Shown here: positions 45,440 through 64,000 of the stretch, piece after piece
Position numbering within the stretch: the first letter of the stretch is position 1
Layout: each line of letters starts with the position of its first letter
Source of the DNA: Sclerodactyla briareus
Lineage: Eukaryota; Echinodermata; Holothuroidea; Dendrochirotida; Sclerodactylidae
DNA length: 64,000 nt
NCBI GenBank assembly: GCA_026419785.1
Contig: JAODTK010001887.1
Location: 186,001-250,000, forward strand
Reading direction: 5' to 3'
Made by a program: the position numbers and the translations under genes
Notes under the pieces: generated by a model
Database searches by the model: none
What the model was told of the DNA's origin: nothing
Seen by the model: the letters and a program-made list of their open reading frames with translations, nothing else

Positions 45440-46427
45440 CTTCAGATCAAATGTGAATTATCCTGTTGATGAGATTGTTCGCGAGCACGGCGTTAGTATA
45501 CACCTCTACGGCGACGAGACCCAACCGTATCTCGCATTAAGGGTTAACTCCCTACAATGCTGAAAGCCTTGCTCGAAATGGATTTGAAATTTGTGAGTCT
45601 GAAATCAGACATTGGATGACATTGAACAAACTGAAGGTCAATGGTGCTAAAACTGAGTTGATGCTTCTAGCCCCCAACTTCAACTAACCAGTATCCGGAT
45701 TAGCGACTCCCCGATTCACCTTGTTTCCACTGCTCGTAATTTAGGGAATTTGTCCGTCGGTGCTATGACCATGGAACCCCTGGTCAGAAAAATTGCGTCA
45801 GGCTACTTATCATTACATCCATAACGTCCAATCCATCAGAAAATATCTGTCTGATCAACTGTCTCCATTCTTATGTATGCGTTAGTTTTTATCTCGTCTT
45901 GACAGTTGTAATTCGCTTTTCTTGGCAGTCCTGATCAACAAATGAGCTTGTTCAGCTCGTTCAGAACACAATTGCCGGAGTGGTAAAATCTACTAACAGA
46001 TTTGAACACATTATCTCAGTCCTCCAAGATCTGCATTGGCTACCAGTATGCGAGCGCCTAAATTTTCGAATGGTAGTGCCCCTGATTACGATTACTTAAC
46101 TTCTCTCATTACTCCTTACATCCCGTCGCGTACCATAAGGTAACGTGATCTGTCTGTTCTTGTGGTACTTGTCCAATTATAGGAACCGACCATTTGCCAA
46201 TGTCCTTCGTGTCTGGAATGATTTGTCGCGTTGGCTGGAGAATTTGCACTTCAGAACCAGCCTCCTAAGCTAAGTTGAACACGTCCCTGTTTAGGAAGAG
46301 TGTTCCACGTCAGGTAATTGTGTTATTTGTTCCAATGACTTTTGTGTACCTGCGCCTCGGATTAGTTCGCTAGATTGATGGCGTATTATAAAAATGCTGG
46401 GTGGGATTATCATTATTATTATTACAT
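45440..46427 (+). pseudogene. CR1/L2-like LINE reverse transcriptase remnant
   Basis: Translation in several frames gives the latter half of a LINE RT. VREHGVSIHLYGDETQPYL (about 45477-45530) corresponds to the YADD motif C, with YADD changed to YGDE. WMTLNKLKVNGAKTELML and STARNLG follow, and then LQDLHWLPV near 46020-46050. The element ends in an AT-rich tail with an ATTATTATTATTAC run at 46407-46427. The first half of the RT and the endonuclease are absent. Frames are interrupted by stops and shifts, and the catalytic Asp pair is altered, so it is dead. Confidence 0.75.
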
Positions 46428-48070: not shown

Positions 48071-50030
48071 GTCCAATATGAATTTAATAAATCCTTGCGT
48101 TCTTTCCAGATATCGGTCTAACAATAATCGTCACGTGAATATCCAAACACACACATACACAATGCACGACAGCGAAGATGCCTTCTCCCTTCAGCAAAAG
48201 AACAAAAGGACTGTGCTGTTGACGAGAGTGTTATGCGATTGGCGGACGCATTCGGTGGCGTGAGTAGGATTTCCAATCTATAGATAATGTTCTAGTTCTC
48301 GAGAGAGGTAACATTGTCTCGAGCCTAATCAATCCAGATGACAAGGTCGGAACAATGAATGGATGGAAACGCCCTTGTATATGCAACCAAACTGAACAAA
48401 TAAACCTATAATTGAACCGAAATATCCACGTTGTCTTCTTCAGTCTCTTGTATTCAATTACATCCTTTCGTATTCATTTATAGATGTTTGCCTATCACAA
48501 CCATCAGCCACTGCAGCTCTGTTTGAGGCATGAGCATCATCCATCTGTCAATAGGTTTTGACTCGCTACTCCGTAATCAATTGTAATGAATTACAGTTAC
48601 CCGCAATGAAAGAAAGAAATACCGAGTCAATGATTCTGTGTGTTCATAAACACGTGCGTAGTGTGTATATAATATTTATTCTAACGCCTGCGAAAGCTCC
48701 GGCTACAAGGATATATTTTCCGAGTTGTCTAAAATAAATAATGTAACATACGATGTAATATAGCTGAGTCACATCATAACATGATCAACTATGCCCTACT
48801 ACAATGGTCCATCATGATTACTTATTAAACTGTGGTTGAAACTGTGGTTATGCTATCTATCACTGTTAGTCTACCGGATGGGCTGTCATGATCAGTAAAA
48901 ATGATAATTGCAATAACTTCCTAACACTTGTTGAAACATGACCAGCTGCTCGTTAGTGTTAGTTAGGAACCACTGCAGAGTCACGTTATAACATGAGACT
49001 GTCAGCCCGCTGTGTGTATCAGGAGCCGCATTCCCTTCATAACTCCCATACTCTCACTTTGGAAGTGTTTTTTTTTCAAGAGAACTATTTCGAAAATGGT
49101 GGATCAATGTTGTGTATATTACAATTATATCATATTCGCTGATAATATAGAAGACATCCTTCTAGTATGAATTCGGTGTCTACAATACATTACATATTTT
49201 GACTTCTGATCATGACCCATAGAGCCAAAATACTAATCCCAGCATAGTAATGCGTACATAGATGTTCACCGATTTGGGATGCAAACTAACAAATCACTTG
49301 CTTGTCAAATTTTGCTAGTAGATAACTATACATGCATAATAAAGAGTGGGCTGAACATCTCATCCCATCTCATCATTATTTTGATGAGTGCGTCCTCATT
49401 CCCGCAGATAAACCTTTTCTGATGCTTCTATCTACAATAGTGAAACCGATTCAGATAGAAGTTGGTGTTTATGTCATCAGCAAGTCACGTGATGTATGTG
49501 TGTGAGTAATGTTACCATCTCAAAATATTTATGAGGTGTATTGCTCATTACGCGAATACTGTAACTGAAAACATCGCAAAACTTCGTTTTAATCAGTCAG
49601 TGAATGAACCCTATTCCGTTTGCGAAGAAAACAGCCATGTATGTAGATCACGTGGTAGCTGGTGTTCCTAGTGTGTCAACTCATCTGATCACTCACTATT
49701 AGCATAGTTTTGAACACAGTTATTGGTATCGATTATAGACGCCCTACCTTATGATTTCTTGATAGTGGGTTGGTGACTGCCAATGCATATCGTAATGAGT
49801 GACAATATGACTCGAATGTTGGTCTCCAAATGACGCTGCATCCCAACTATATGAGAGATTTCAATCGAACCTGTTTTCAGTGTGCTTGGTGGAGCGCGGA
49901 ATATAGGCGTATATATACTACATTTCCTGTTTCCATATTAAAAATGAGAGACGGGCTCATAAAGGCTTGATGATATGCGACCACGGTATACCCTCCGTGT
50001 CCAAAGAGGCTGCTACTCGGGAGGGGGGTG
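48071..50030. other. Unassigned sequence
   Basis: AT-rich with no frame of coding character or recognised repeat. Confidence 0.35.
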
Positions 50031-50460
50031 ACTCTATCCATATTGAACGACGCTGACTACATCTACGTTCCCCACTATGTGCCGCCCACAACCGAGTTGT
50101 CTATTCGCCAAGTTTCTTATCTTCCCTCTTATCTCAGACCCTTCACTCAACCCCACCAAACCCCTCGCTCTGATACGTAGGGTTGTACATTTTCCACTCC
50201 TCTCCCACGGGAACACCCCAGAGCATTGTTTCTTTCCGTAGAGGACAAAAGCCACCGCCTCCTGAGAGGCTACATGCGTCGCTACGTACGTGTCATCCAT
50301 CGTCGGATAAAGTGATCATACTTGATTGTTCATTTCAAGTTAAGTTTTATTCTTCCCCTTATCTCAACCCCCCACCCCGCCCCAACCCCACCGCAAGCCT
50401 ACTTCTAGCCCCTCCCCATACAATCCTGGCTGAGGACTCCGTTTGCATTCTGTTTTAGCC
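50031..50460 (+). other. Pyrimidine-rich block with repeated CT/CCA segments
   Basis: Segments at about 50108-50165 and 50340-50400 share 'tt.ttcccttatctca...ccccacc'-like order, suggesting a diverged local duplication. The second includes C6-A-C4-G-C4-AA-C4 (50368-50389), a minus-strand quadruplex motif. Frames on both strands are composition artefacts. Confidence 0.45.
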
Positions 50461-51385
50461 ATGTAATGCTACCATGTAAGGTTGTGACACAAGGCAGACC
50501 TAAACAGAATTGCTGACCAGGTGGCAATTTTTTGCAGTGTTTCACATTACTCCGTTTGGCGGCCATACATGCTGACTATAACTATCAGGACAGATATTTT
50601 TATGTAAAGAAATACGTTCCGAACGCGAACACTGCGACAAAGGTGTCACTCCCTTTGACGGAAAGAAGTGATGGAGACATTCCGCAATATGTCCCATGTG
50701 GCCTACTGATGATAACGTGACCGACGAAGTGAATCAATTTGGACCGGCTGTGCATGACGGACACGTGTTTGTGAACTGGCCACAACACCGATTCAATCGA
50801 ACGTAAAAGCACTATGTTTTCTCCTATAAGGCATTAATGGAGAGTCAGGTCTCTACCCATTCCCACCAGCCCAGCAATCAGATGATTGATTGAATAGTCA
50901 TCGTAATAATTATTCTCCAAGCTTGGAACACATGTTGCTCGACTTGCATTAAATGCCTCGTCCGGTGAATTTCGGTAGTCAGCATTTTGATTCCCTCCCT
51001 GTCCACTTTGAACATGTATGATTCCTCAACGTATTCACATTTCCTTCTATACTCCGACTGAACTGCACTGACGCAAACTAATTGTGACGTCATGCTGACG
51101 ACGGCGACGGCGGAAGCATGAGGGCGACACCCCACCATGGAATCTCTCAAAGGTCCACGAATCTTTGCAACACCTGCCCATATTTTATAACCCTACTTTA
51201 TTAGAGACAATCTTTAGCATACACAGTCGCAGTGTCACAACGGTGGTTACCGTATATACCAGACATTGCCAGGCATCCCGAATGCTATCATCTTTTCTAT
51301 TGTCTTTCGAAGCAAATGGAATCCACGCATATATGCAATTCTCCTTGTGAGCACTGTATCTATAGAACGCAGGCATTCAATAAGA
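50461..51385. other. Unassigned sequence
   Basis: No recognisable gene or repeat; several overlapping 60-90 codon frames on both strands. Confidence 0.35.
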
Positions 51386-51640
51386 TCAAATTATACATGT
51401 AGACTTGGCATAAAGGGTTGACATATAAAGTAGAAGATTCCTAATAATTTGGGGTCAGAACCAAGGTCTCCCAAGGTCAACATTGGGTGGTATGAAAACC
51501 ATGTGAGCATGACAGACAACTGTGCAACGGAATTATGTAGAGAAATCATACTTGGCATGAACAGGTGTATTGAGTAGATGATTCCTATCTTTTTTAGATT
51601 GAAGGTCACCAAAGTTCAATTGGGGTAAAAACAAAAGTAT
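51385..51640 (-). repeat. Inverted copies of the satellite-like unit
   Basis: Reverse complement carries 'cacatggttttcat', 'aatgttgaccttgg', 'ttccgttgcacagttgtc', and two 'aggaatc(a/t)tctac' words about 144 bases apart, in the same order as the array at 47.4-48.1 kb. At least one full and one partial unit. Confidence 0.7.
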
Positions 51641-52461
51641 TAAAAGATGATAACTTTCTTGACCAAACGATGCAGGAAGAAGACATGTTAACGGTTGACT
51701 TTCCCGCCAACCTTTCTGATGAACTACATTTATAGGGGCAATAATCAAGAGATCGCTGTTTTTGCCACAAACACAGAAGTTTGATTGGAAGTTTGCAAAA
51801 ATGGGCAATCATTTTTTTCCAAGAATATGTGGAGGCCTTCTGATATTCCTTCCACAATAATTGGGGCATTTTAACGGTGAACCTTTCCTTTCTTCAACAA
51901 TTCCCTCTTTATGAACTACGCTAATTTGGGGGAAACATCGGTTCCATTCTTTACATTCCTTACATATTTTTTTTTTCAAATACATAAAACAATAGTTCTA
52001 TATGCAAAAAAAGGCTGAAATTAGACTTCCTGTTATAGTTTGATATGCCATTGATGTTGAGGTTAAAAGCACTAACATAGAACATTCAACGAGGAGGGAT
52101 TACATGAGATGCATTCAGTCGACCGGACTTCCGGATTTAAAGCTAGATGGTCAACGACATTAGCGTATTATCGGGAGGGCAATGTATCCATTTCCGTTGC
52201 TTCGATAGTCCGTAAATCTCCATCAACTTCACCTTAGAGGTAAGCCTCTCATCATGCAACACTTCGGCATTACATGAATTTTGAGTATTTGGATCTGGAG
52301 CTGACCATTCAAATAAAAAACAAATTCCATTAGGTTGTTCTGTTTTCTGTATTGTCCTTGTTACTTCCAGGGAAAGTGATACAAACAGAAATAATATGTA
52401 TTTCATACATTAAACAGACATGCATGACTACTTTGGCCATTAAAATTACATACTTGAACTT
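51641..52461. other. Possible 3' flank of the DIRS-like element, unassigned
   Basis: Lies downstream (minus-strand sense) of the recombinase stop. An 87-codon minus frame (52143-52406) is unrecognised. Terminal or split repeats of the DIRS-like element should be sought here but none was identified by eye. Confidence 0.3.
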
Positions 52462-53480
52462 TTAATTTAATTTGGACTTGTTGTAAAACTTGGCGAAGGT
52501 GCTCTCAGAGTTCCAACCAGCTGTGTGCAAGATAGTTTCAACTGGTACACTGCTAACTTTAGCTGCGTACACAGAGGCCCCTCTTGTACTGTCTGCCTTA
52601 TACTGAAACACATCGACCCCTGGAATTGCCAGGATTTCTTTTAACCACCTTGACATCGTATTGTTTGACACCCTGTAGTGAGGTTTCGAATGACGTATAA
52701 AAAGCTGGGTTTCTGACCCACGTAAAGACCTAGTGACCTCTAGGTACTCTGACAAAACAAGAAAGACACTTAACCTTTCATCTTGCGGGAAATCCTCTAG
52801 GATTACCCTGGGTTGCGCTTTACCGGGCTTAGATTGTTTAACAAGGTCCTCATTTGTGAAGATGTAAGAATCCACTGTTTCATGCATACATGCAATATTA
52901 ATATTAAGATATTTCAATGTTTGAACCTTTTGTGCTGATACAAGAGCCACGAGCATTAAGAATTTATATGTGAGGCTCTTGAGAGGTAAACCGACTAAAC
53001 CCTACAGAGGATGTTGCATACGGAGGTAGTTGAGTACCACGGGAACACCCCATATGTCTGAATATCTACACCGAGGAGTTCTTAAGTGAAACACACCCTT
53101 CATAAACCGTGAAATTAAAGGGTGGGACCCAATGATGTTAGTCATACTGTTGTTGAACGTCAGCAACGCTGAAAGTGCACTTCGGGCAGTATTTAGCCCA
53201 CTTTAACCCAAGACTTCATGGAATAGCACAGTTAGAAATGCCGACACATTTCTTACAGAAGGGGAAAAGACATTCCTTGGATTAACAAAATTCAGTCCAT
53301 GGCCTGTGGTATGTGGTGTATTGTTTCTGAGTACTTGCTCTCCACGAGAACGATATAATGTAAATGGCTTGGGCAGACAACCCTCTCTTCCCAAGAACCG
53401 ACCGGACAAGCGGCATGCTATAAGATGGAACTTGTTGTCCAAGGAATGAATTAACTGGTCCGAAGGGACATGGACTTCCC
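52462..53480 (-). pseudogene. DIRS-like tyrosine recombinase
   Basis: The N-terminal core-binding part (53480-52990) is recovered across frameshifts: ARSALSAL-like, then NNSMTNIIGSHPLISRFMKG, then GVFHLRTPRCRYSDIWGVPV. The catalytic part is one 164-codon frame (52956-52462) with SAQKVQTLKYLNI, then ADSTRGASVYAAK, then HTAGW, then KFYNKSKLN. Compared with active family members, the box II Arg is present, the HTAGW motif is present and the nucleophile Tyr (codon at 52485-52483) is present. The first-box basic residue is Lys (SAQK) and the usual His three residues before the Arg is Asp (ADSTR instead of AHSTR). It would mediate integration of the element's circular DNA. Confidence 0.85.
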
Positions 53481-54251
53481 GTTGGAGGTATCAGCCGTGG
53501 CATATCTGTGGTCATGTTCAATACCCGCGTGTACCACGCCTGTGTTGGCCAATAGGGGACGATGAGAATTCCAGTCGCCTGTTCTGTTTGTCTGTTTGAT
53601 TTCTTTCCAGATAGTGATGAATCATGCTGAAAGGTGGGAAAACATGAAAATAATAGTGAGTCCATTAGAATGAAAAATGCATCTACAAATAATGCATTTA
53701 CATCTGGCTTCCAAGAGACATACGGACTGATCTGCTTGTTCAAGCTGGAAGCGAACAGGTCAATATCAGGTTTTCCCCTTATCAGGGTGATTTGCTGAGA
53801 AAGAGGTCGCAACATCCACTCCGTGTTTGCGCTCAACCTACGTGACAGACTGCCTGCCTTCTTAATGGTTTTGCCAAGAATAAAGTGGCACGTAAGCCAT
53901 ATGCCTCTCTCAGTACACCATCGCCTGATCTGTTTTGTGATATCATTGCACTCGACTGAACGATTACCCCCATTGCATTGATATGTGAAATTGCAGTGGA
54001 GTTATCACACATTATTTTGATTTGCTTACTGTATAATTGTGAAAGAAGGTTTTGAGGCCCATAAAAAAAGCGATAAGCTCTAATACATTTATATGAAGTA
54101 AGCTAATACTTGGAGACCAACCACTTGTGGCTTTGGCGCCTGATGTGACACAATAAGTACCCGAGCCAATGCTGGAAGTATCAGTGGGCATACACACATC
54201 TGGTTCGGATTGTTTGACTGGCATATACGCCGTAGGCAAGTTGGATATCAC
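53282..54251 (-). pseudogene. DIRS-like RNase H and linker region
   Basis: 54251-54012 reads SGAKATSGWSPSISLLHINV then LELIAFF, the RNase H core with its Glu. After it come KIMCDNSTAISHINAMGG (catalytic Asp) and, in the next frame, RRWCTERGIWLTCHF. 53836-53282 begins with SANTEW and contains GKPDIDLFASSLNKQI, typical of the end of the DIRS RT/RNase H protein, then VDAFF. It leads into the recombinase start. A one-base shift near 53945 separates the two parts. RNase H would remove template RNA during reverse transcription. Confidence 0.8.
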
Positions 54252-54505
54252 TAGTTCAAATCTTCGACAGAATGGGAAGAAAGTGTGACTTTGCTAATAA
54301 AATCACCTTTACTATCTTTCAGCGCTTGAATTTTAGCAGGATCCAGGTTACGATAATGGAGTCTACCGTATTGAACTCCAGGTAATAATGACACAATCGG
54401 TCCAATCACACGAGCTAAATCTCGGACCGTTAGGGCGCTAGAACCCCTAAATTTGGTAAACTCATATATGCTATAACTCATATATAAATAACTAGCAACT
54501 CTCAC
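54251..54505 (-). pseudogene. DIRS-like RT C-terminal part, left side of LINE insertion
   Basis: An 84-codon frame with SSALTVRDLARVIGPIVSLL followed by PGVQYGRLHYRNLDPAK matches the conserved segment after the RT fingers/palm in DIRS and Ty3-type proteins (VIG...S..P...YG.L.YR.LE). Its upstream partner is found at 57180 on the far side of the LINE, with about 20-25 residues not accounted for. Confidence 0.8.
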
Positions 54506-54508
54506 TGT

Positions 54509-54925
54509 GTGAGACTGGTACTGGTATACCGTCCTGAAGTAAGAAACAAGGATGGTCGGCGGATACCTTTTAGTGTATTCTTACAAGAATTCAGTGAATT
54601 GATAGAAAGCTACTTGCTGAATTCTTCCGATGTCGTTTTTGCGGGTGACTTCAACATTTGGGTCGATGACCGGAATAGTAGGGAAGCCGAACAGTTCCTG
54701 GAATTATTGTCATCGTACGGATTACAGCAGCATGTGACAGAGCCCACCCATGATCATGGTCACATATTGGATCTCCTTATTTCTCATGAGGGAGGAAAGG
54801 TTTTATCCGAGACACGAGTCCAAGCAGGTCCCTCGGATCACCTGGCAGTTAACGTGCCATCTAACATTGTGGCAACCACCACACCAATGGGAAGTGGTAA
54901 CTTCACGCCACTACAGATCAATTGA
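54509..54925 (+). pseudogene. LINE apurinic/apyrimidinic-type endonuclease, N-terminally truncated
   Basis: A 138-codon open frame. Motifs in order: LVLVYRPEV, FAGDFNIWVDD (GDFN at 54644-54655), LQQHVTEPTHDHGHILDLLI, and GPSDHLAVNV (SDH at 54833-54841). These are the later active-site blocks of the endonuclease that nicks target DNA for priming. The first roughly 100 residues, with the N-terminal Asn and Glu motifs, are missing. Confidence 0.9.
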
Positions 54926-55880
54926 CTGTTCTGTTTTTGGTCGCGATATCGTCCAGTCGCTCTCATCGATTGATTTCGATGACAGTGACCGAGATTTCTG
55001 TGTGAGCCGGTACAACCAGGTGCTGGAAGACCTGTTGGACAAACATGCACCTGCTCGTACACGCCGTGTTATGATTTAAGACAAACCACACCCTGGTTCA
55101 ACGAGGAGATTCGAGCAGCAAAGAATCGTAGGCGAGAGCTAGAACATAAATCGGCCGAAGGTCCAAACTCGAGATTGACCGCCAACTGTACTGCCAGCAA
55201 AGGCAATTGGTGAATCATGTCATCAAATCTGCGAAAGCTGACCACTACTCCAAGTCCATTGATGACTGTAGAGGTGATCAAAACAGCCTCTTTGGAATTG
55301 TGAGTAATTTGCTGCACAAAACAAGCTCGCCTGTCCTTCCGCGCTGTCAGTACGATAGCAGGAATTAGCATGCCGGTTTTCAACGATTTTGTGGAGAAGA
55401 CAGAATCTATTCGCATTGGGCTAGGAGCTAACCATCTTGGCTTTGATTCTTCTGGCACACAGCGCAGTCTTGGGAGTACCGGATGATATACTTCGCCCCA
55501 ACAACAGACGAAGAGGTCGAGAAAACACTGATGAAAGCTCCTACAAATTCATGTGACCTTGATCCGATTCCGACTTGGTTACTCAAAGACTGTGCAACCG
55601 AATCGTACCATTCCTAACACGCATCATCAACAAATCTCTGGGAGATGGGGTCTTCCCCAATGACTTAAAACATGCTCATGTAAGACCTTTGCTGAAGAAG
55701 CCAAATCTTGACAAGGAAAACCTTAAGAATTTTTAGACCCGTCGCTAACCTGCCTTTCCTTGGCAAGATGATAGAGCGCATCGTGTCCACCCGCCTTTGG
55801 TCTGTCATCACACAACATTATCTACAGGATCCATTCCAATCTGCATACCGCCCCCACCATAGTACCGAGACAGCATTATT
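54926..55880 (+). pseudogene. LINE linker and N-terminal RT region
   Basis: Recovered across frame changes: VFGRDIVQSLSSIDFDDSDR (from 54930), LDKHAPARTRRV, PWFNEEIRAAKNRRRELEH (from 55093), then TTDEEVEKTLMKAPTNSCDL with DPIPTWLLKDC (55500-55595), INKSLGDGVFPNDLKHAHVR then PLLKKPNLDKEN (55625-55720), and RPVANLPFLGKMIERIVSTR (from 55738). This is the conserved block order leading into the palm of CR1/L2-type RT. Confidence 0.85.
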
Positions 55881-55882
55881 GC

Positions 55883-56736
55883 GTGTACAGAATGACATTT
55901 TGCGTGAAATGGATCAGGGGGTATATAACGGCAATGATCCTACTCGACTTAAGTTCCGCCTTCGATACAGTTGATCATAACATCCTTCTGCACAGGCTGG
56001 AACACCAAATTGGAATCGGGGGCAATGCACTGGCCTGGTGTAGATCATACCTTCAAGACCGCTCTCAGTGTATTCACATCCAGGAATCATGTTCCAAACC
56101 GGTCGTTCTGAAATATTCGGTTCCACAAGGTTCAGTGCTCGGTCCCCAGTGGTTCGTGGTTTTATACATCACCTGTCCAAAACATCATGTCCGAGAATGG
56201 TCGTTAGGTATCACGTTTATGCAGATGATACGCAAACATATTCTTCATGCCCTTCAACTCCAGGCAACGCTTCAGAGGTATGTGTGGAGGAGGTCCGTGT
56301 CTGGATGAAAGCGAATTACCTGAGACTCAATGACAGCAAGACGGAATTTATCCTTTTTGGCTCAAAATCAAAGCTAGAAAGGATCGCTATTCCTCACTCC
56401 AAAATCGGTGACTCTAAGATTATTCCAGCTAGCCAAGTACGGAACCTTGGTGTTGTAATGGATAGTCACATGACCATGAAATCCCATATCTCAGCAACTG
56501 TTCAGTCTTCCAGCTTCCATATCAGAAACTTGTGCAGAATCCGGAAATATCTAATCCGACAGGCAACAGAACAGTGGTCCACGCATTTGTCACCTCCCGA
56601 CTTGACATGGGTAACGCTCTTTTTGTTCAATCTTCCAGACGAACAGATTCGTAGACTCCAGAGGCAACAGAACACTGCTGCCCGTCTTGTAACACTTACG
56701 AAGCCATCCGTTGCACATATCCCCAGTCCTCGATGA
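55883..56736 (+). pseudogene. LINE reverse transcriptase core
   Basis: Motif A ILLDLSSAFDTVDHN (Asp in LLDLSSAFD, 55940-55966), motif B SVPQGSVLGP (56117-56146) and, after a frameshift near 56150, motif C HVYADDTQTY (YADD at 56218-56229). Then come WMKANYLRLNDSKTEF, GSKSKLERI, SQVRNLGVVMDSHMTM and SFHIRNLCRIRKYL. Catalytic Asp residues are present, but the frame is broken so no active enzyme is made from this copy. Confidence 0.9.
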
Positions 56737-57049
56737 TCTTCATTGGCTCCCAGTTTGTTTTAGGATCCAGTACAAACTACTACTACTCACCTTCCGTGCT
56801 CTAAGCCAACGTGATCCACCATACTTACTGCAGCTGCTGGAGCCGTACCGTCCCATCCGTACTGGTCTGAGATCTGCCTCAAAGAACCTCCTGGCTGAGC
56901 CGAAGTCGTCGCGGACGTGGGGAGACAGATCCTTCTCTGTGGCCGCACCCCGTTTGTGGAACAAACTTCCTGTTGAAGTACAGTCAAGCCCATCACTGGA
57001 GGCCTTCAAGTCACGATGCAGACACACCCTAATGAAAACCGTTTCTTAA
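56711..57049 (+). pseudogene. LINE RT C-terminal region
   Basis: One open frame: VLDDLHWLPVCFRIQYKLLL, TFRALSQRDPPYLLQLL, RTGLRSASKNLLAEPKS, RTWGDRSFSVAAPRLWNKLP, and a terminal SLEAFKSRCRHTLMKTVS with a stop at 57047. This conserved tail is shared by CR1/L2/Rex-type elements and is the segment also preserved at 46.0 kb and 60.8 kb. Confidence 0.9.
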
Positions 57050-57179
57050 TTTGTGTTAATTGGGCTCTTCTGTACAGTTTTTGTGTGAGGTAGAATTATG
57101 TGTTTTTTATTGTATATTTCGAGCGCTTTTTTAGAGGGGGGGGGCGGATTTTTGCGCATTATAAGTATTCACTATTATG

Positions 57180-57960
57180 CGTGGGGCTTTTGTTCGGTGG
57201 ACTATTGTCATGTCAACCGACCGAGATTTAAGATTCAGAAAAACCTAGAACACCAGCGTCTCTTAGTTACCAGGTGTGACTTGCCAGGATGTATGGAGAA
57301 ACCCAATCTGTGAACAGATTTGGCAGCTCGCTGACCAGAATTGACAGTATATGGACAGTATATCATCAAAATGTCATGTTTAAAAAAGGATCTTTTTTAA
57401 ATCGTAAAAAGTATATCTAATGTTTGGAGCACTTTCGTAAAAAAAATTCTTGGTGCTGATACCAAGCCATTGGAAGGCCAAGTATTAATGATACAACATG
57501 TTCTCCCCATTGAAATCAGAACATTGAATTAATATGCATCTTTCGAGTCTATTGAAGCCATGGAGCAATCTTAAGTCATAAGTTGTATCAGCTGTGTGCA
57601 GAGAATCCATTTTAAATGATGATACGCACGTAGATGTTAAATGTTCCAGATTGAGGATTAATGCGGATGTGTACCATCGTCTTGGGTCGAAAAATATGGA
57701 GGAAGATACACCCTTAGAAAGGAAAAGATCTTTCCTCTCGTCCCAATTAAAACTTCTTCTAATTCTGAAAAATTGGTAGCAGGGCTGATATTGAATTCCG
57801 GCAAGAGGGGAGGGAAGTGATTCAAGCTCGATATTCTAGCCCAGAAATGACACCTGTCAGAGGTTATTTTTTGCCAACTCCCAATGATGAAGTTGGTAAT
57901 TCTACCTTCAATAAACCTGAGCCCACATTCTTATGTGGTGGACGTATTATTGAACATTGA
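57180..57960 (-). pseudogene. DIRS-like RT, first part, right side of LINE insertion
   Basis: Minus-strand reading with several shifts gives RITNFIIGSWQKITSD (start of RT), LNLEHL and FKMDSLHTA, then MASIDSKDAY (57561-57531; motif A Asp), SNGLVSAPRIF (about 57472-57440), HFDDILS (Asp pair 57367-57362), and RLGFSIHPGKS. These are the ordered motifs of DIRS RT (H-F-K-M, S-I-D-LKDAY, LPNGL-SAPR, YxDDI, GF-IHP-KS). The text then runs to the LINE border at about 57179 and resumes at 54505. Confidence 0.75.
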
Positions 57961-58002
57961 CCTCACCTCTGATAGAAGCGGCCTTGAGGAACCACTCTTT
58001 TG

Positions 58003-58275
58003 CTACGGCATTGTACTGAATCCGGCATCTCCATAAAAAAGGCCGTCTGTCATAGGGCATTTGAACCGTCCACCATCTGGACGATTGTAGTCTCTCCCTC
58101 TATACGGACCTCGCGCCTGACGGAGCGATGTGAAGGGGTCGAGCAACGCTTGCGTACATTTCTTTGCTTCTGATATGTCAGTAACTTCTTGGAAACTGAT
58201 CAGCAAAAGCCTCGTAGTGAATGGGACGTGTAGAGCAAGAACCTGATATTCAGTTTTGAGTTCCGGTTGGATCAT
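58003..58275 (-). pseudogene. Possible DIRS-like ORF1 (gag) C-terminus
   Basis: A 90-codon minus frame immediately upstream of the RT. Its last part is Arg/Gly/Tyr-rich (PYRGRDYNRPDGGRFKCP) after SEAKKCTQALLDPF. This is where the nucleocapsid-like end of ORF1 is expected. The assignment is mainly positional; the composition is compatible with an RNA-binding tail. Confidence 0.4.
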
Positions 58276-59008
58276 TCACGCCTAAAAGAAATGAAGGGAA
58301 AAAATCCCCGTGCGTCCAATGGATTTCTTGTAGGTAAGTCATGTTTCCACCTTATAATCGGACACAAGTATTACCTATTACTCAATCAGTATCCCCCTCG
58401 AATTCGTTATTGTAGGCTGCCGAGTTGGACTCAGGTTATGTTGACTTGAGAAACGCTCGGTTTGTGCGGGGTACGCCATGAATATTAGAATGACGGATTG
58501 GGCCGAGCAACCCCGTTTGCTCGAATGAAATACCGGAGCGAAACTTTTCAAACAAATGAACTTACTAGGAGACATGGGCTTTGCACCCATATACCTAGTG
58601 CCCGTGACTGTGAGTGGACCAAAGTACCACATACGCTACGTGGGCAGATCTTCCAGGTGATAGGGAATTTCCCAAAACCATTAGAGAATAAATCGAAATT
58701 CTACATGACAGGAGCGACAATTAATACTCGAGGTCAGAGCTTTTCTACCTCCCGTCTCGTACCTAACGGAGACAAGATCCTCCTGAAATTTTGGAAGTTC
58801 CAGCCAGAGAACCTCGCGGGTGCACCCTCATATGATTCAAGTGGCTGGGGTAAATAATCTTGTAGAACCCTACTGAAACCTTTAAACGGGGGACCGACTG
58901 CTAGTGCGTGGTGGTAATCGCATCAACATTAAGAGTAGGGGAAACGATGGACGTTAGATAGCTCTACCAGAGTATAACGAGGCGTGAAACCACTTGTAAA
59001 CGAGTTTA
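58276..59008. other. Unassigned, possible 5' part of the DIRS-like element
   Basis: The longest frame here (58498-58857, plus, 119 codons) is opposite in sense to the DIRS-like element and unrecognised. The upstream ORF1 and the left terminal repeat of the element would be expected somewhere in this stretch but could not be identified. Confidence 0.3.
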
Positions 59009-59540
59009 ACGTTGTAATTGTCAACTTTTGCTCTTTTTCACACTATTCAAGAGAGAAGCAGGTAATTCTGGTATAGACATGTTGTCATGTAGGATTACAC
59101 ACCATGGCGTTGTGTAGTTGGATGAATAGACAATAGAATTAAACAGTTGAAGTTGTAATTGTCCTTTTGACATTTTTCACACTATCGTTGGTCAACTTTG
59201 TGTTTGTTACTATTAAATGCTAATTATTTGCTCTCCACAGCTAAGGGTACTTCCATGGGCGTGTCAATTGAATGGATTTGACAGATAGAATTAAAAAGAT
59301 TGAACGTTGTAATTGTGTCTTTGCACTACTTTTCACACTATCGTTGGTCAACTTTGTGTTTGTTACATTATTAAAATGCTAATTATTTGCTCTTCTTGGC
59401 TACTGGTCCTCCCGTTAGGAATATCCCCCCACTTCCACGGGAAATCTATTCAAGAGAGAAGCAGGCCTAATTCTTGTATAGACATGTTGTCATGTAGGAT
59501 ACACACCATGGGCGTGTAGTTGAATGAATAGATCAGTAAA
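59009..59540 (+). repeat. Three-copy tandem repeat, unit up to ~235 bp
   Basis: Units begin with 'gttgtaattgt' at about 59010, 59152 and 59304. Units 2 and 3 share 'tttttcacactatcgttggtcaactttgtgtttgttac', 'attaaa.tgctaattatttgctct'. Units 1 and 3 share 'attcaagagagaagcagg', 'tagacatgttgtcatgtagga' and 'acacaccatgg'. Unit 1 lacks the middle and unit 2 lacks the 'aagagagaagcagg' part. Thus unit 3 is the most complete. Confidence 0.85.
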
Positions 59541-60599
59541 TCAATGGAGGCCATTTAGCCTATAATGGTTAGACAGGAAGCACACTGCCAGGCTGTGCTA
59601 GGATGTTTCGCCACTCCTCCCCCCTCCTGTCCTCTCTCATGTCGCCGGTGAAAGGAAGTGCAGCTGTTGGACCCCTTCGGAGATATTTCCCTCAACGGGC
59701 AATTCATTCATAAGTATTTATGTGTACAGGTTATTATCATTTTTGAGCATTTTATTTTGAGCATATCTCACAAATAGAGTATACACTATCTGCGCAAATT
59801 TACAGTCCCATTACCGGAAGTAATGAATTTATAAAACATCTATTCAGTCACTCAGTGGCACGGCAAGAAAGCACTGATACCAGTGGTTCTTTCCTATTTG
59901 TTGAACAGCAGTTTCTCATGATAAATCATTCGATTTTAGTCGTGTTCACGGTGATATTTTGATATTTTCCATGTTTTTTCAGTCCACTAATACCATCAAT
60001 CAATTAATATTTCTGCAATTAGGTTCGTTTTTTCAATGCTCTTTGTATTCTTCTTCGATACACGTGTTGACACACCTTTATCCAGTGGATGAGAATCCAT
60101 AACAAAGATTGACTAGTTCCCGGCATTTCGCCAGTCAATTAACTGAATAAATAGTCTTACAGCAAATCCCTTTAAATGAAGGCACTGAAGGTCGTATTTC
60201 ATTCTGTTGGTTTAAGTTTGCCTAATTTGAAGCTTTCCCTAAACAGCGCGAGGTCAGATCTTGCTCGATAGAGAAGGAGAGAGGCGGTCTTGAAATATAT
60301 TTCTGACTGTCAGAGCCAAAGTGAAAGGAAGCAATTATCAACTCCCAAATGTCCGCTTTTCCAAGGATGTTAAACTCGCCGAGGCGTTTTTATTTTTTAT
60401 GACGCCGTGTGCAAAGGAGTGATAACTCCTGGACCTAAAAGGGAATTTCATCAAGGTAATTACGTCTGCTGTCTCCTTACGAACTGCTTCCATCGATAAG
60501 GCTTGCCTTTATTCCTGCACGTCAATTCATCAAGATTGACGGTACGGCTATGAAAGGGAGCTGGGATATCAAACTGCCTGGATAATGTGAGTCCCATTC
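59541..60599. other. Unassigned sequence
   Basis: No recognised genes or repeats. Confidence 0.35.
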
Positions 60600-61143
60600 C
60601 TGGTAAGGTTGTTCTCAAACATCTCTCAATGGATCAGCAAATTGCCTCCATTGTTTATGTACCACTTAAGACGCATCAGCCAGATCTTGACAAAGTCACC
60701 ACTGAAAAAACCAATGCATGCAGCTATCTCGAGTAGACTTCATCATGCCAGTTCTCTACTCTATGGTTCTACCTCTACCCAACTGTCCAACTTACAAAAG
60801 ATTCAGAACGTTGCTGCAAGAATTGCCCCCCGCGCCGACAGACGCATGTCAATGACCTCAATTCGCAAGGAACTTTACTGGCTTCCATTCACGCCGGATT
60901 GAATACAAAATCCTTATTCTTGTGTCTCGGCTTAAACATTTAAGCACACGGCCTCCTACGAGATGCCCTTGATCGTCACCCCAGTACAGGTCGCTCAAGT
61001 CGTCACAACAACCCCAGCGTCTTCAGCTCCCCGTCTCGAGAATGAAGACTTTCGGCGACCGGAGCTTCCAGTCCTCCGCGGCCTCGTCTGTGGAGCCAAG
61101 ACATCCCCAAAGGACTTGGCTCTATGAACTCGCTGGATTTTAT
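60600..61143 (+). pseudogene. CR1/L2-like LINE 3' remnant
   Basis: 60609-60902 encodes AAISSRLHHASSLLYGSTST followed by QLSNLQKIQNVAARIAP and SIRKELYWLPF, the block before the LINE C-terminus. 60945-61140 in a second frame gives KTFGDRSFQSSA and an eroded end resembling 'PRLWNRLPKDLAL'. It corresponds to the C-terminal region of the 54.5 kb LINE but is a different, diverged lineage. Upstream RT motifs are absent, so it is a short 5'-truncated copy, and it is followed by an ATT tail. Confidence 0.8.
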
Positions 61144-61236
61144 GATTATTATTCTTATTATTATTATTATTATATTATTATTATTAGTATATTATTATTA
61201 TTATATTATTATTATTATTATATTATTATTATTATT
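61144..61236. repeat. (ATT)n tail or microsatellite
   Basis: About 93 bases of ATT repeats with slips (TATATT, TTAGTA), directly after the LINE 3' remnant. It is probably an expanded LINE tail rather than an independent microsatellite. Confidence 0.9.
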
Positions 61237-62234
61237 GTCTCTGCTTTCTCCGGCGACGATCCTCCTCCCGTATACGGGTGACTAAGTTGTGCGTCTAGCT
61301 GCGGTTGCAATGACGGGCATTTACTGCGGAATACAACTTAGAGGCAAATCACGAAAGGGGATTGCTAGGTGCGTGGGACTTTTTCTGTGTGAAAAGTGTA
61401 GAAAATGCTAACAATCTTTTTTTTACAGAATAGTGATGGGTTGGCTAATGCTTGGATAAAACAAAGCGACCGTGTGCAGAGTGTCGGGTGCTACACACTC
61501 AGATATCGCAACTGCGTCGAATTAACACTTTCAATGTATAAGTGCTTCGTATTTCAATTTTTCAAATGCAAAATGTTCACAAGAATATATTTATGGCATT
61601 GTGACCTTGATTTTGGTATCTGCTCAATGTAATGCAATTATTTTCTACAGTGAAGCTCAAAACATCTACACTGGTGGTGAGTAAATTGTACACATTTCGG
61701 AATTGGGGCACTAGTGTCAGGTGTGCTCTTGGTTTCAACACATTCTTCTTTAGAGTATAACAGACAGATAATCCTGGCATTCTGTCACGACCGGGGCCTT
61801 GTGACGATGTGTTGAATCGATTATATAGACATTTCTGTGACAGTAGGAGTTGATAGAGGGGGCAATGACTCGACTACTTTCGAGGATGGTAATTGCTAAT
61901 GGAGAAAACAAATGCTGATAGCGCTGTCCTTGGAAAGCCGAGGGATAATATATCAGTATTAACGTTGATATTTGTAATCAAGGGGATGACATCTATTTAA
62001 AAACTGAGAACAAAATTCAAGCAGTAACGATCACACTCCAGCTAATACTTATAATTCGATTTATCGAGTCTGCCACCAACTCTCGAATTACACATGTATC
62101 AAACTTTCTAATCTTTATTGTGTACCTACAATCACTAACCAGTCCTACATTGGTCGTAATCGAGTCAGTCGACATCCGAATTGACAGGCACACATACAGT
62201 TGCATAGACTTACCTAAGTCGCCTAACAAAATAC

Positions 62235-62280
62235 ACTCATCTATGAGTTAGACTTGCCGAGTTATACTCGGCTCAAGTCT
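62235..62280. repeat. Two adjacent hairpins
   Basis: ACTCAT-CT-ATGAGT (62235-62248) is followed by AGACTTG-CCGAG-TTATA-CTCGG-(CT)-CAAGTCT (62250-62280), a 12-base-pair stem with a two-base bulge and five-base loop. The first has the same CT loop as the hairpins at 36831-36863. Confidence 0.8.
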
Positions 62281-62616
62281 GACTAAGTCTGTTTTGATTA
62301 TTCGGGCATTTCTGACGGGATCTGGGCCAAAAACCCCCATTCCAGGATCCCAAGTAGCCAAGCAATTTACAAAAGCCTCTGGATCGACTCCAATAACTTC
62401 AGATAGTTACTCAGCGTCCCCTTCCCCTTTTGACCATTTATGAGCCAGTTCGTGTTTGTGAGTGCGCATGCTCACCATACACAACACTCAGGGGAATAGT
62501 CGAGATTCACCCCATAGCGATATCGTTACAGCCTATTTTTAAACTGTCACCACTATTTGAAAACGCAACCAATTCATCCTGTTTTCGGATGTTATTGTTG
62601 ATAAGTATGTGGATGA

Positions 62617-62634
62617 GGGGGGGGGGGGGGGGGG
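62617..62634 (+). repeat. Poly-G tract (G18)
   Basis: Longest G run in the window. Confidence 0.95.
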
Positions 62635-63499
62635 TATGTGAAGTTTTGTATTGGCAGGATTCGTAATTTCGACAGGGGAGTTCCGAAAGATCGTTCTGCA
62701 CACTGTACGTTCGATGTCAAACTGCCATCTTTCCCTCATGACCGTTTGAACACATCCCATTAGCATCTCATTAAACTGTAACTTCGAACTGGCTTATTGT
62801 TCAGCAGTGATGAACAGAGGGAACGTTGCATGAATATTCAACTGAGTGTCATATATTTCAGTCGACGCTTGATCAGCCCTAGAATGTTTGCGCGCTACCT
62901 GCGCAGTAGGGATTGAATTGCTCACACCAAATAGTACCCATTGCTATTGGAATGTCATCGGCAGTTTTCATTTTTGTATTGTATAAAGAACGCTTCACAG
63001 AATGACCTCCGAGGATACACACTCGTGTTGGTGCATCGATTCACTCGTTTAAAGTATCTACTTGTAGTATAGTAGAGTTTTGATCTAATTATCATTCATT
63101 ATTGCCAAATAACTCTGCCTGATCCATGAGGAGGAACCTGGATCACAAGGTCAACTGATCCGGGAAATCGATGGGGGGATTCGGTAACACATGTTTTAGG
63201 GTATCATGACACCATTATTCTCCAATAATCTCCAGCAGTGAATTGTTTTCATTTCCCTACAGTCTTTGCGGACCCCGCCCATAAAGTAATCACTACACCT
63301 GAACTATCTTATCCTCTAGGCCTAATAATATTGTCGGATGTTTTCAGTGTAGGTTTTCTCTCTCTCTGTCACATCATTTTCTGATGCACGCGAAAAAAAC
63401 CTATATTGCATAGATGTGTCCGTTTGTCACTAATTTCTAGGATGTTAGCTCGCTTGGGCTGCCCCGACAGTGGCATTATATAACATCGCCGACATTACC

Positions 63500-63790
63500 T
63501 ATGAATTAAGGTTGTCTAACATACTGTAGAAAAAACAGCCAAATCGTTCATCAGATCGTTCATATTCAGCGTGTTATATATTTCTCAAACCAAGTTTTAC
63601 TGCGCTTGAATGGGGTCAACCCGACTAGAGTCAGTCAAAACAACAAATTGCTCTGGAGAAGACCAATTACATTCTCTTAAAATTGTTACACAATAACGGA
63701 GAGGAAAGCTGAAACTTTTATGTAGGCTGTTCCCCTGGTTATAATCTCACGTAGGCGTACTTTCAGATTTGCGACATGAATATACTGACT
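63500..63790 (+). repeat. Dispersed repeat family, copy at 63.6 kb
   Basis: Partner of 36480-36825. Shared blocks include 'aaatcgttcat', 'gcgctt', 'ggggtcaacc', 'tagagtc', 'aagaccaattacattctct'-like sequence and 'gctgttcccctggtta'-like sequence. Confidence 0.6.
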
Positions 63791-64000
63791 GTCCCCACAA
63801 CCAATTACATCGCACATATCCAGTGCGACTAATGCAAACACACCTCAAAATATATCGGTATCTCTCCCATAAGTGAATACGGTACAACCATTATCTACAC
63901 CTTTCTTCCTCATCTTCAAACCCCTTATTTCATGGTTCAGTAGCTAAAATATCCAACTGGCCTGTGAAAGCATGATTTATACGTGAATAACAGTGCTCCG

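Follow-up and report, generated by a model that had tools for sequence, protein, structure and literature searches.

A LINE nested in opposite orientation within a DIRS-like retrotransposon, in one copy of a duplicated stretch of the Sclerodactyla briareus genome

Nested retrotransposons are common. DIRS1-like elements have inverted terminal repeats together with internal complementary regions (available text of PMC3266345). Three motifs of their pol region, LGFLIN, DLFAS and ASKSGWG, are given as specific to them in the available part of PMC2685390. Ngaro-like and PAT-like elements also encode reverse transcriptase (RT), RNase H and tyrosine recombinase (YR) (PMC9210276, in part), and their repeats are split direct repeats (PMC9210276 and PMC6681497, both in part). 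DIRS1-like elements have been reported from annelids, cephalochordates, cnidarians, crustaceans, molluscs and others (PMC3266345, in part), and in view of this wide occurrence, and of the many matches to the present YR in the genome (below), the suggestion of an earlier sequence-only reading, that the presence of a DIRS element helps to place the genome, is less well supported. The nested pair does not place the host, and a COX1 family search for the host gave no match. A narrow literature search found no published DIRS/LINE nest with an empty site in a segmental duplication, which does not prove absence from print.

The DIRS1-like element and its relatives

The window, that is, the whole stretch of 64,000 nucleotides analysed here, corresponds to C1832:186001-250000, and the genome searched comprises 3171 contigs totalling 319,486,128 bases. 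With 52462-54504 as the query, a DNA search gave 10 matches, namely the window itself and nine pieces at eight other places. All eight were fetched for comparison, and L042, a ninth place, was added solely for its YR. By BLAST to these genome copies, a DIRS1-type fossil on the minus strand has homology from 52094 to 58296, interrupted by a plus-strand LINE. Its 5' part (57179..58296; BLAST from 57193 upward and protein matches) consists of a gag-like end (58003-58296) and RT pieces (57930-57235), both DIRS-type stretches on the minus strand. Its 3' part (52094..54490, minus strand; BLAST to L011/L012, L013, L014 and L016, and protein matches) contains the RT end, RNase H, an MT-like region, YR and 3' non-coding sequence. 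Here a DIRS-type stretch at 54487-53833 (minus) carries the RT end and RNase H; the C-terminal part of RT (54251..54487, minus) has 94% amino-acid identity over 71 residues to L009, and its open reading frame continues past the LINE edge. A minus-strand open frame at 53282..54001 covers the end of RNase H and the MT-like region with DLFAS, a motif named in the available part of PMC2685390. YR follows RT-RNase H without a change of strand, as in DIRS1-like elements, and its end forms 179 open codons at 52462..53001 (minus), also recognised by comparison with relatives. At 52096..52277 (minus), remnants of an internal complementary region are identified from the match to L011 and the layout of the copy on contig C3041 (L011/L012): 52096-52131 (94% over 36 nt) and 52247-52277 (94% over 31 nt) match, inversely to the coding strand, the stretch adjoining the 5' terminal repeat of that copy.

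Pfam gave one weak match among the DIRS pieces of the window, besides a chance-level one to RimM (E 0.26): the MT-like region resembles PCIF1_WW at E 0.037 and 14 bits, far below the cut-off of 31.1. The YR of the window (52462-53001) matched neither Pfam nor phage records, and its relative L042 matched PF00589 at E 7.2e-6 and 26.3 bits, slightly under the cut-off of 27.1. The lone match of L042 among solved structures, at E 0.097, was taken as chance. Genome matches to the YR of the window amount to 67 pieces, its own included, with relatives of the 37% class.

As to the pol motifs, the window has DLFAS without a mismatch; LGFLLN occurs in L009 and L014 and in neither L013 nor the window; and ASKSGWG is matched loosely, by TSSIGSG in the window and by ASCIGWG in L011. 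The C3041 relative has inverted end repeats (258537-258613 / 270362-270430, 78% over 77 columns) and two more inverted pairs besides the terminal one. No direct pair joining its ends was found at E up to 0.001 in this one copy, which speaks against Ngaro and PAT elements: RT, RNase H and YR are shared with them, but the repeats of the C3041 relative are inverted, not direct. With DIRS1-like elements the window element shares the succession of a gag-like part, RT, RNase H, the DLFAS region and YR, all on one strand, and the two relatives with LGFLLN and the terminal and internal complementary repeats on C3041 extend the likeness. It differs from them in that BLAST to L011 found no 5' terminal repeat in the window, internal remnants only, in that HxxR and YxDD are lost, and in that the MT domain is weakly seen; between window 51500-52600 and 57901-59700, no inverted pair was found. 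The element is filed as a decayed DIRS1-like copy.

The YR had been described as still having its nucleophile and HTAGW motif. The tyrosine and HTAGW are indeed retained, but the histidine of HxxR is changed, the window having DSTR against HSTR in all three relatives covering the site (L012, L014 and L042). We take this histidine to be a catalytic residue in tyrosine recombinases. The RT box reads YVDD in L009 and YIDD in L013 and L014; at this place no such box occurs in any of the three frames of the window, and a few codons past it another frame contains an FDD triplet.

Two further features were observed. The C3041 copy is itself interrupted, at the point matching window 52739, by about 7.4 kb (C3041:261982-269428) containing direct repeats. 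Adjoining the 5' part in the window, a plus-strand open frame of 122 codons (58489-58857) had no Pfam match.

The LINE inside the DIRS RT region

The LINE lies within the DIRS RT in the orientation opposite to the DIRS element and is 2.7 kb long. DIRS pol and YR sequences on the two sides, and endonuclease and RT matches within, bear out the nesting of a plus-strand LINE in a minus-strand DIRS-like element as originally proposed. Searched against the genome, 54480-57240 matched 40 pieces, the window copy counted in, of which the best other match has 84% identity over query 395-2699. Homology to these copies sets the LINE at 54491..57178 (plus strand), with a frame that is broken; the leftmost positions common to other genome copies are 54488 and 54491, and the start is perhaps 54488. 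The limits of 54505-57178 given before are thus correct within about 20 bases. At 54488..54925 (plus), part of the endonuclease is matched by PF14529 (E 1.7e-8, 34.7 bits, cut-off 27.4), and three overlapping open pieces at 55696..56736 (plus) are matched by RVT_1 (E 5.9e-5, 1.3e-7 and 1.9e-6), one of the three above the cut-off. Because L043 extends upstream of the start point with more endonuclease-like sequence, the window LINE is 5' truncated, within the endonuclease.

At the other end, sequence matches define a 3' end common to other copies (57143..57178, plus). Window 57178 is the end point of four of the 40 pieces, three of which were fetched (L025, L026 and L027); in these the equivalent end is followed by TTA units, which form a long run in L025 and number only about two in each of L026 and L027. 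Endonuclease and RT, 5' truncation and a structure without terminal repeats are those of a LINE, putatively of the CR1/L2 group. The window LINE or its copies resemble CR1/L2-group LINEs in endonuclease, RT, 5' truncation and 3' TTA units, and no difference setting the window LINE apart was seen, other than its broken frame. The bases adjoining the LINE have diverged too far for any target-site duplication to be recognised reliably.

Elsewhere in the window, 45501-46078 is weakly similar in protein to the RT and C-terminal part of this LINE.

LINE-free copies and the segmental duplication

A search for genome copies without the LINE had been proposed as a test of the nesting. Three of the eight other DIRS places span the junction (L009, L013 and L014), all continue across it as predicted, and none carries the LINE. 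The other five leave it uncovered: the C3041 copy is internally deleted there, and L015, L016, L017 and L018 do not match on both sides. L009 aligns with 53634-54467 (91%) and 57193-59413 (83%), and 10 nt separate the two blocks. L013 matches 54380-54472 and 57441-57687, its blocks lying 264 nt apart against 280 nt in the window minus the LINE, and L014 matches 54131-54335 and 57531-57704, with a spacing of 460 nt against 507 nt. The BLAST homology of the DIRS element stops at 54472 on the left (L013) and restarts at 57193 on the right (L009), so that 18 and 14 bases adjoining the LINE edges fall outside the matches. At the LINE site itself, L013 is about 12 nt longer than L009 and L014. L009 and L014 each have a frame in which LGFLLN can be read up to the site, and in L009 RT resumes past the site in another frame.

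Since these three copies span the site LINE-free with like spacing, the DIRS sequence on the two sides is that of a single element, the LINE being the later arrival, in agreement with the relative age first proposed. The decay of both parts, and the lack of a Pfam match for most pieces, might be expected if two different elements flanked the LINE by chance; this is refuted by L009, L013 and L014, in which the order of the two parts is the same and their spacing nearly equal, and its probability is next to nil. Chance adjacency of the two pieces is likewise rejected by the DIRS sequence that these copies carry across the site.

L009 belongs to the second, downstream copy of a segmental duplication. 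In a self-comparison of C1832:146001-367000, the first copy covers 48546..64000 of the window in part, as collinear blocks rather than base for base, and continues beyond the window. The second begins at 323734 and keeps the orientation of the first, offset by 84-89 kb within the window. The duplicate blocks are collinear with 80-94% identity, and K2P distances are 0.044-0.109 over seven aligned blocks of at least 400 columns, two of which overlap at a local repeat. The stretches missing from one duplicate include the LINE and 51781-53633. The latter, a gap of 1.85 kb in L009 that contains YR, lies 0.8 kb from the LINE site. The C3041 copy aligns unbroken over 52739-54207, across the edge of L009 at 53634, and the second duplicate would therefore have suffered a deletion there.

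Within the duplicated stretch, a LINE-like scrap at 60609-60902 (weak protein similarity, no Pfam match) lies inside a DNA block of 85% identity; it is present in both duplicates and is therefore older than the duplication. Locally repeated units at 58997-59530 are differently arranged in the second duplicate. Beyond the window, C1832:260-367 kb contains many mutually similar copies resembling a tandem array.

Nesting and duplication were both read from the assembled contig sequence, and the arrangement could be an assembly artefact. Collinear copies in the same orientation on one contig could also be two haplotypes assembled together, the LINE then being a presence/absence polymorphism. This is improbable given the K2P of 0.044-0.109 and the many gaps over the seven blocks, and given the position of the duplicated stretch's second part among the further repeats just mentioned, as in a tandem array.

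Order of events and its meaning

The order most consistent with the copies, and very probably the correct one, is DIRS insertion and decay, then duplication, then LINE insertion in one duplicate. A DIRS1-type retrotransposon would have inserted and decayed, after which the chromosome stretch containing it would have been duplicated, the second copy coming to lie, its orientation unchanged, 84-89 kb downstream. The LINE would later have been copied into the DIRS RT region of one duplicate only, in the opposite direction and 5' truncated in its endonuclease, probably by target-primed reverse transcription. The downstream duplicate would separately have lost the stretch matching 51781-53633, YR included, rather than the window having gained it, and the LINE would have been absent from that duplicate from the beginning.

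Besides a possible assembly artefact, the following count against this order: the lack of a clear target-site duplication, the difference of about 12 nt in site length, and the 1.85 kb deletion in L009, by which the downstream duplicate does lose DNA. The last two are what might be expected if the duplicated DIRS fossil had already carried the LINE and the downstream copy had then deleted it, having lost 1.85 kb nearby and having a site some 12 nt shorter than that of L013. The gap in L009, however, ends no more than 23 and 14 bases from the respective LINE edges; BLAST detects no LINE sequence remaining at the L009 site, and L014, at a different place, is equally short. LINE insertion before the duplication is thus very improbable.

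New beyond the sequence-only reading are the duplication, relative to which the LINE is the younger event, the lost histidine of YR and the extent of the DIRS element to 52094 and 58296. The DIRS copy and the LINE in the window are both broken, and the nested pair is biologically routine, a piece of ordinary genome history. The natural copies without the LINE indicate in which order three events probably occurred at this locus. With DIRS in both duplicates, the LINE in one and YR gone from the other, the locus very likely constitutes a natural clock of three layers, recording DIRS decay, duplication and LINE activity in this genome.
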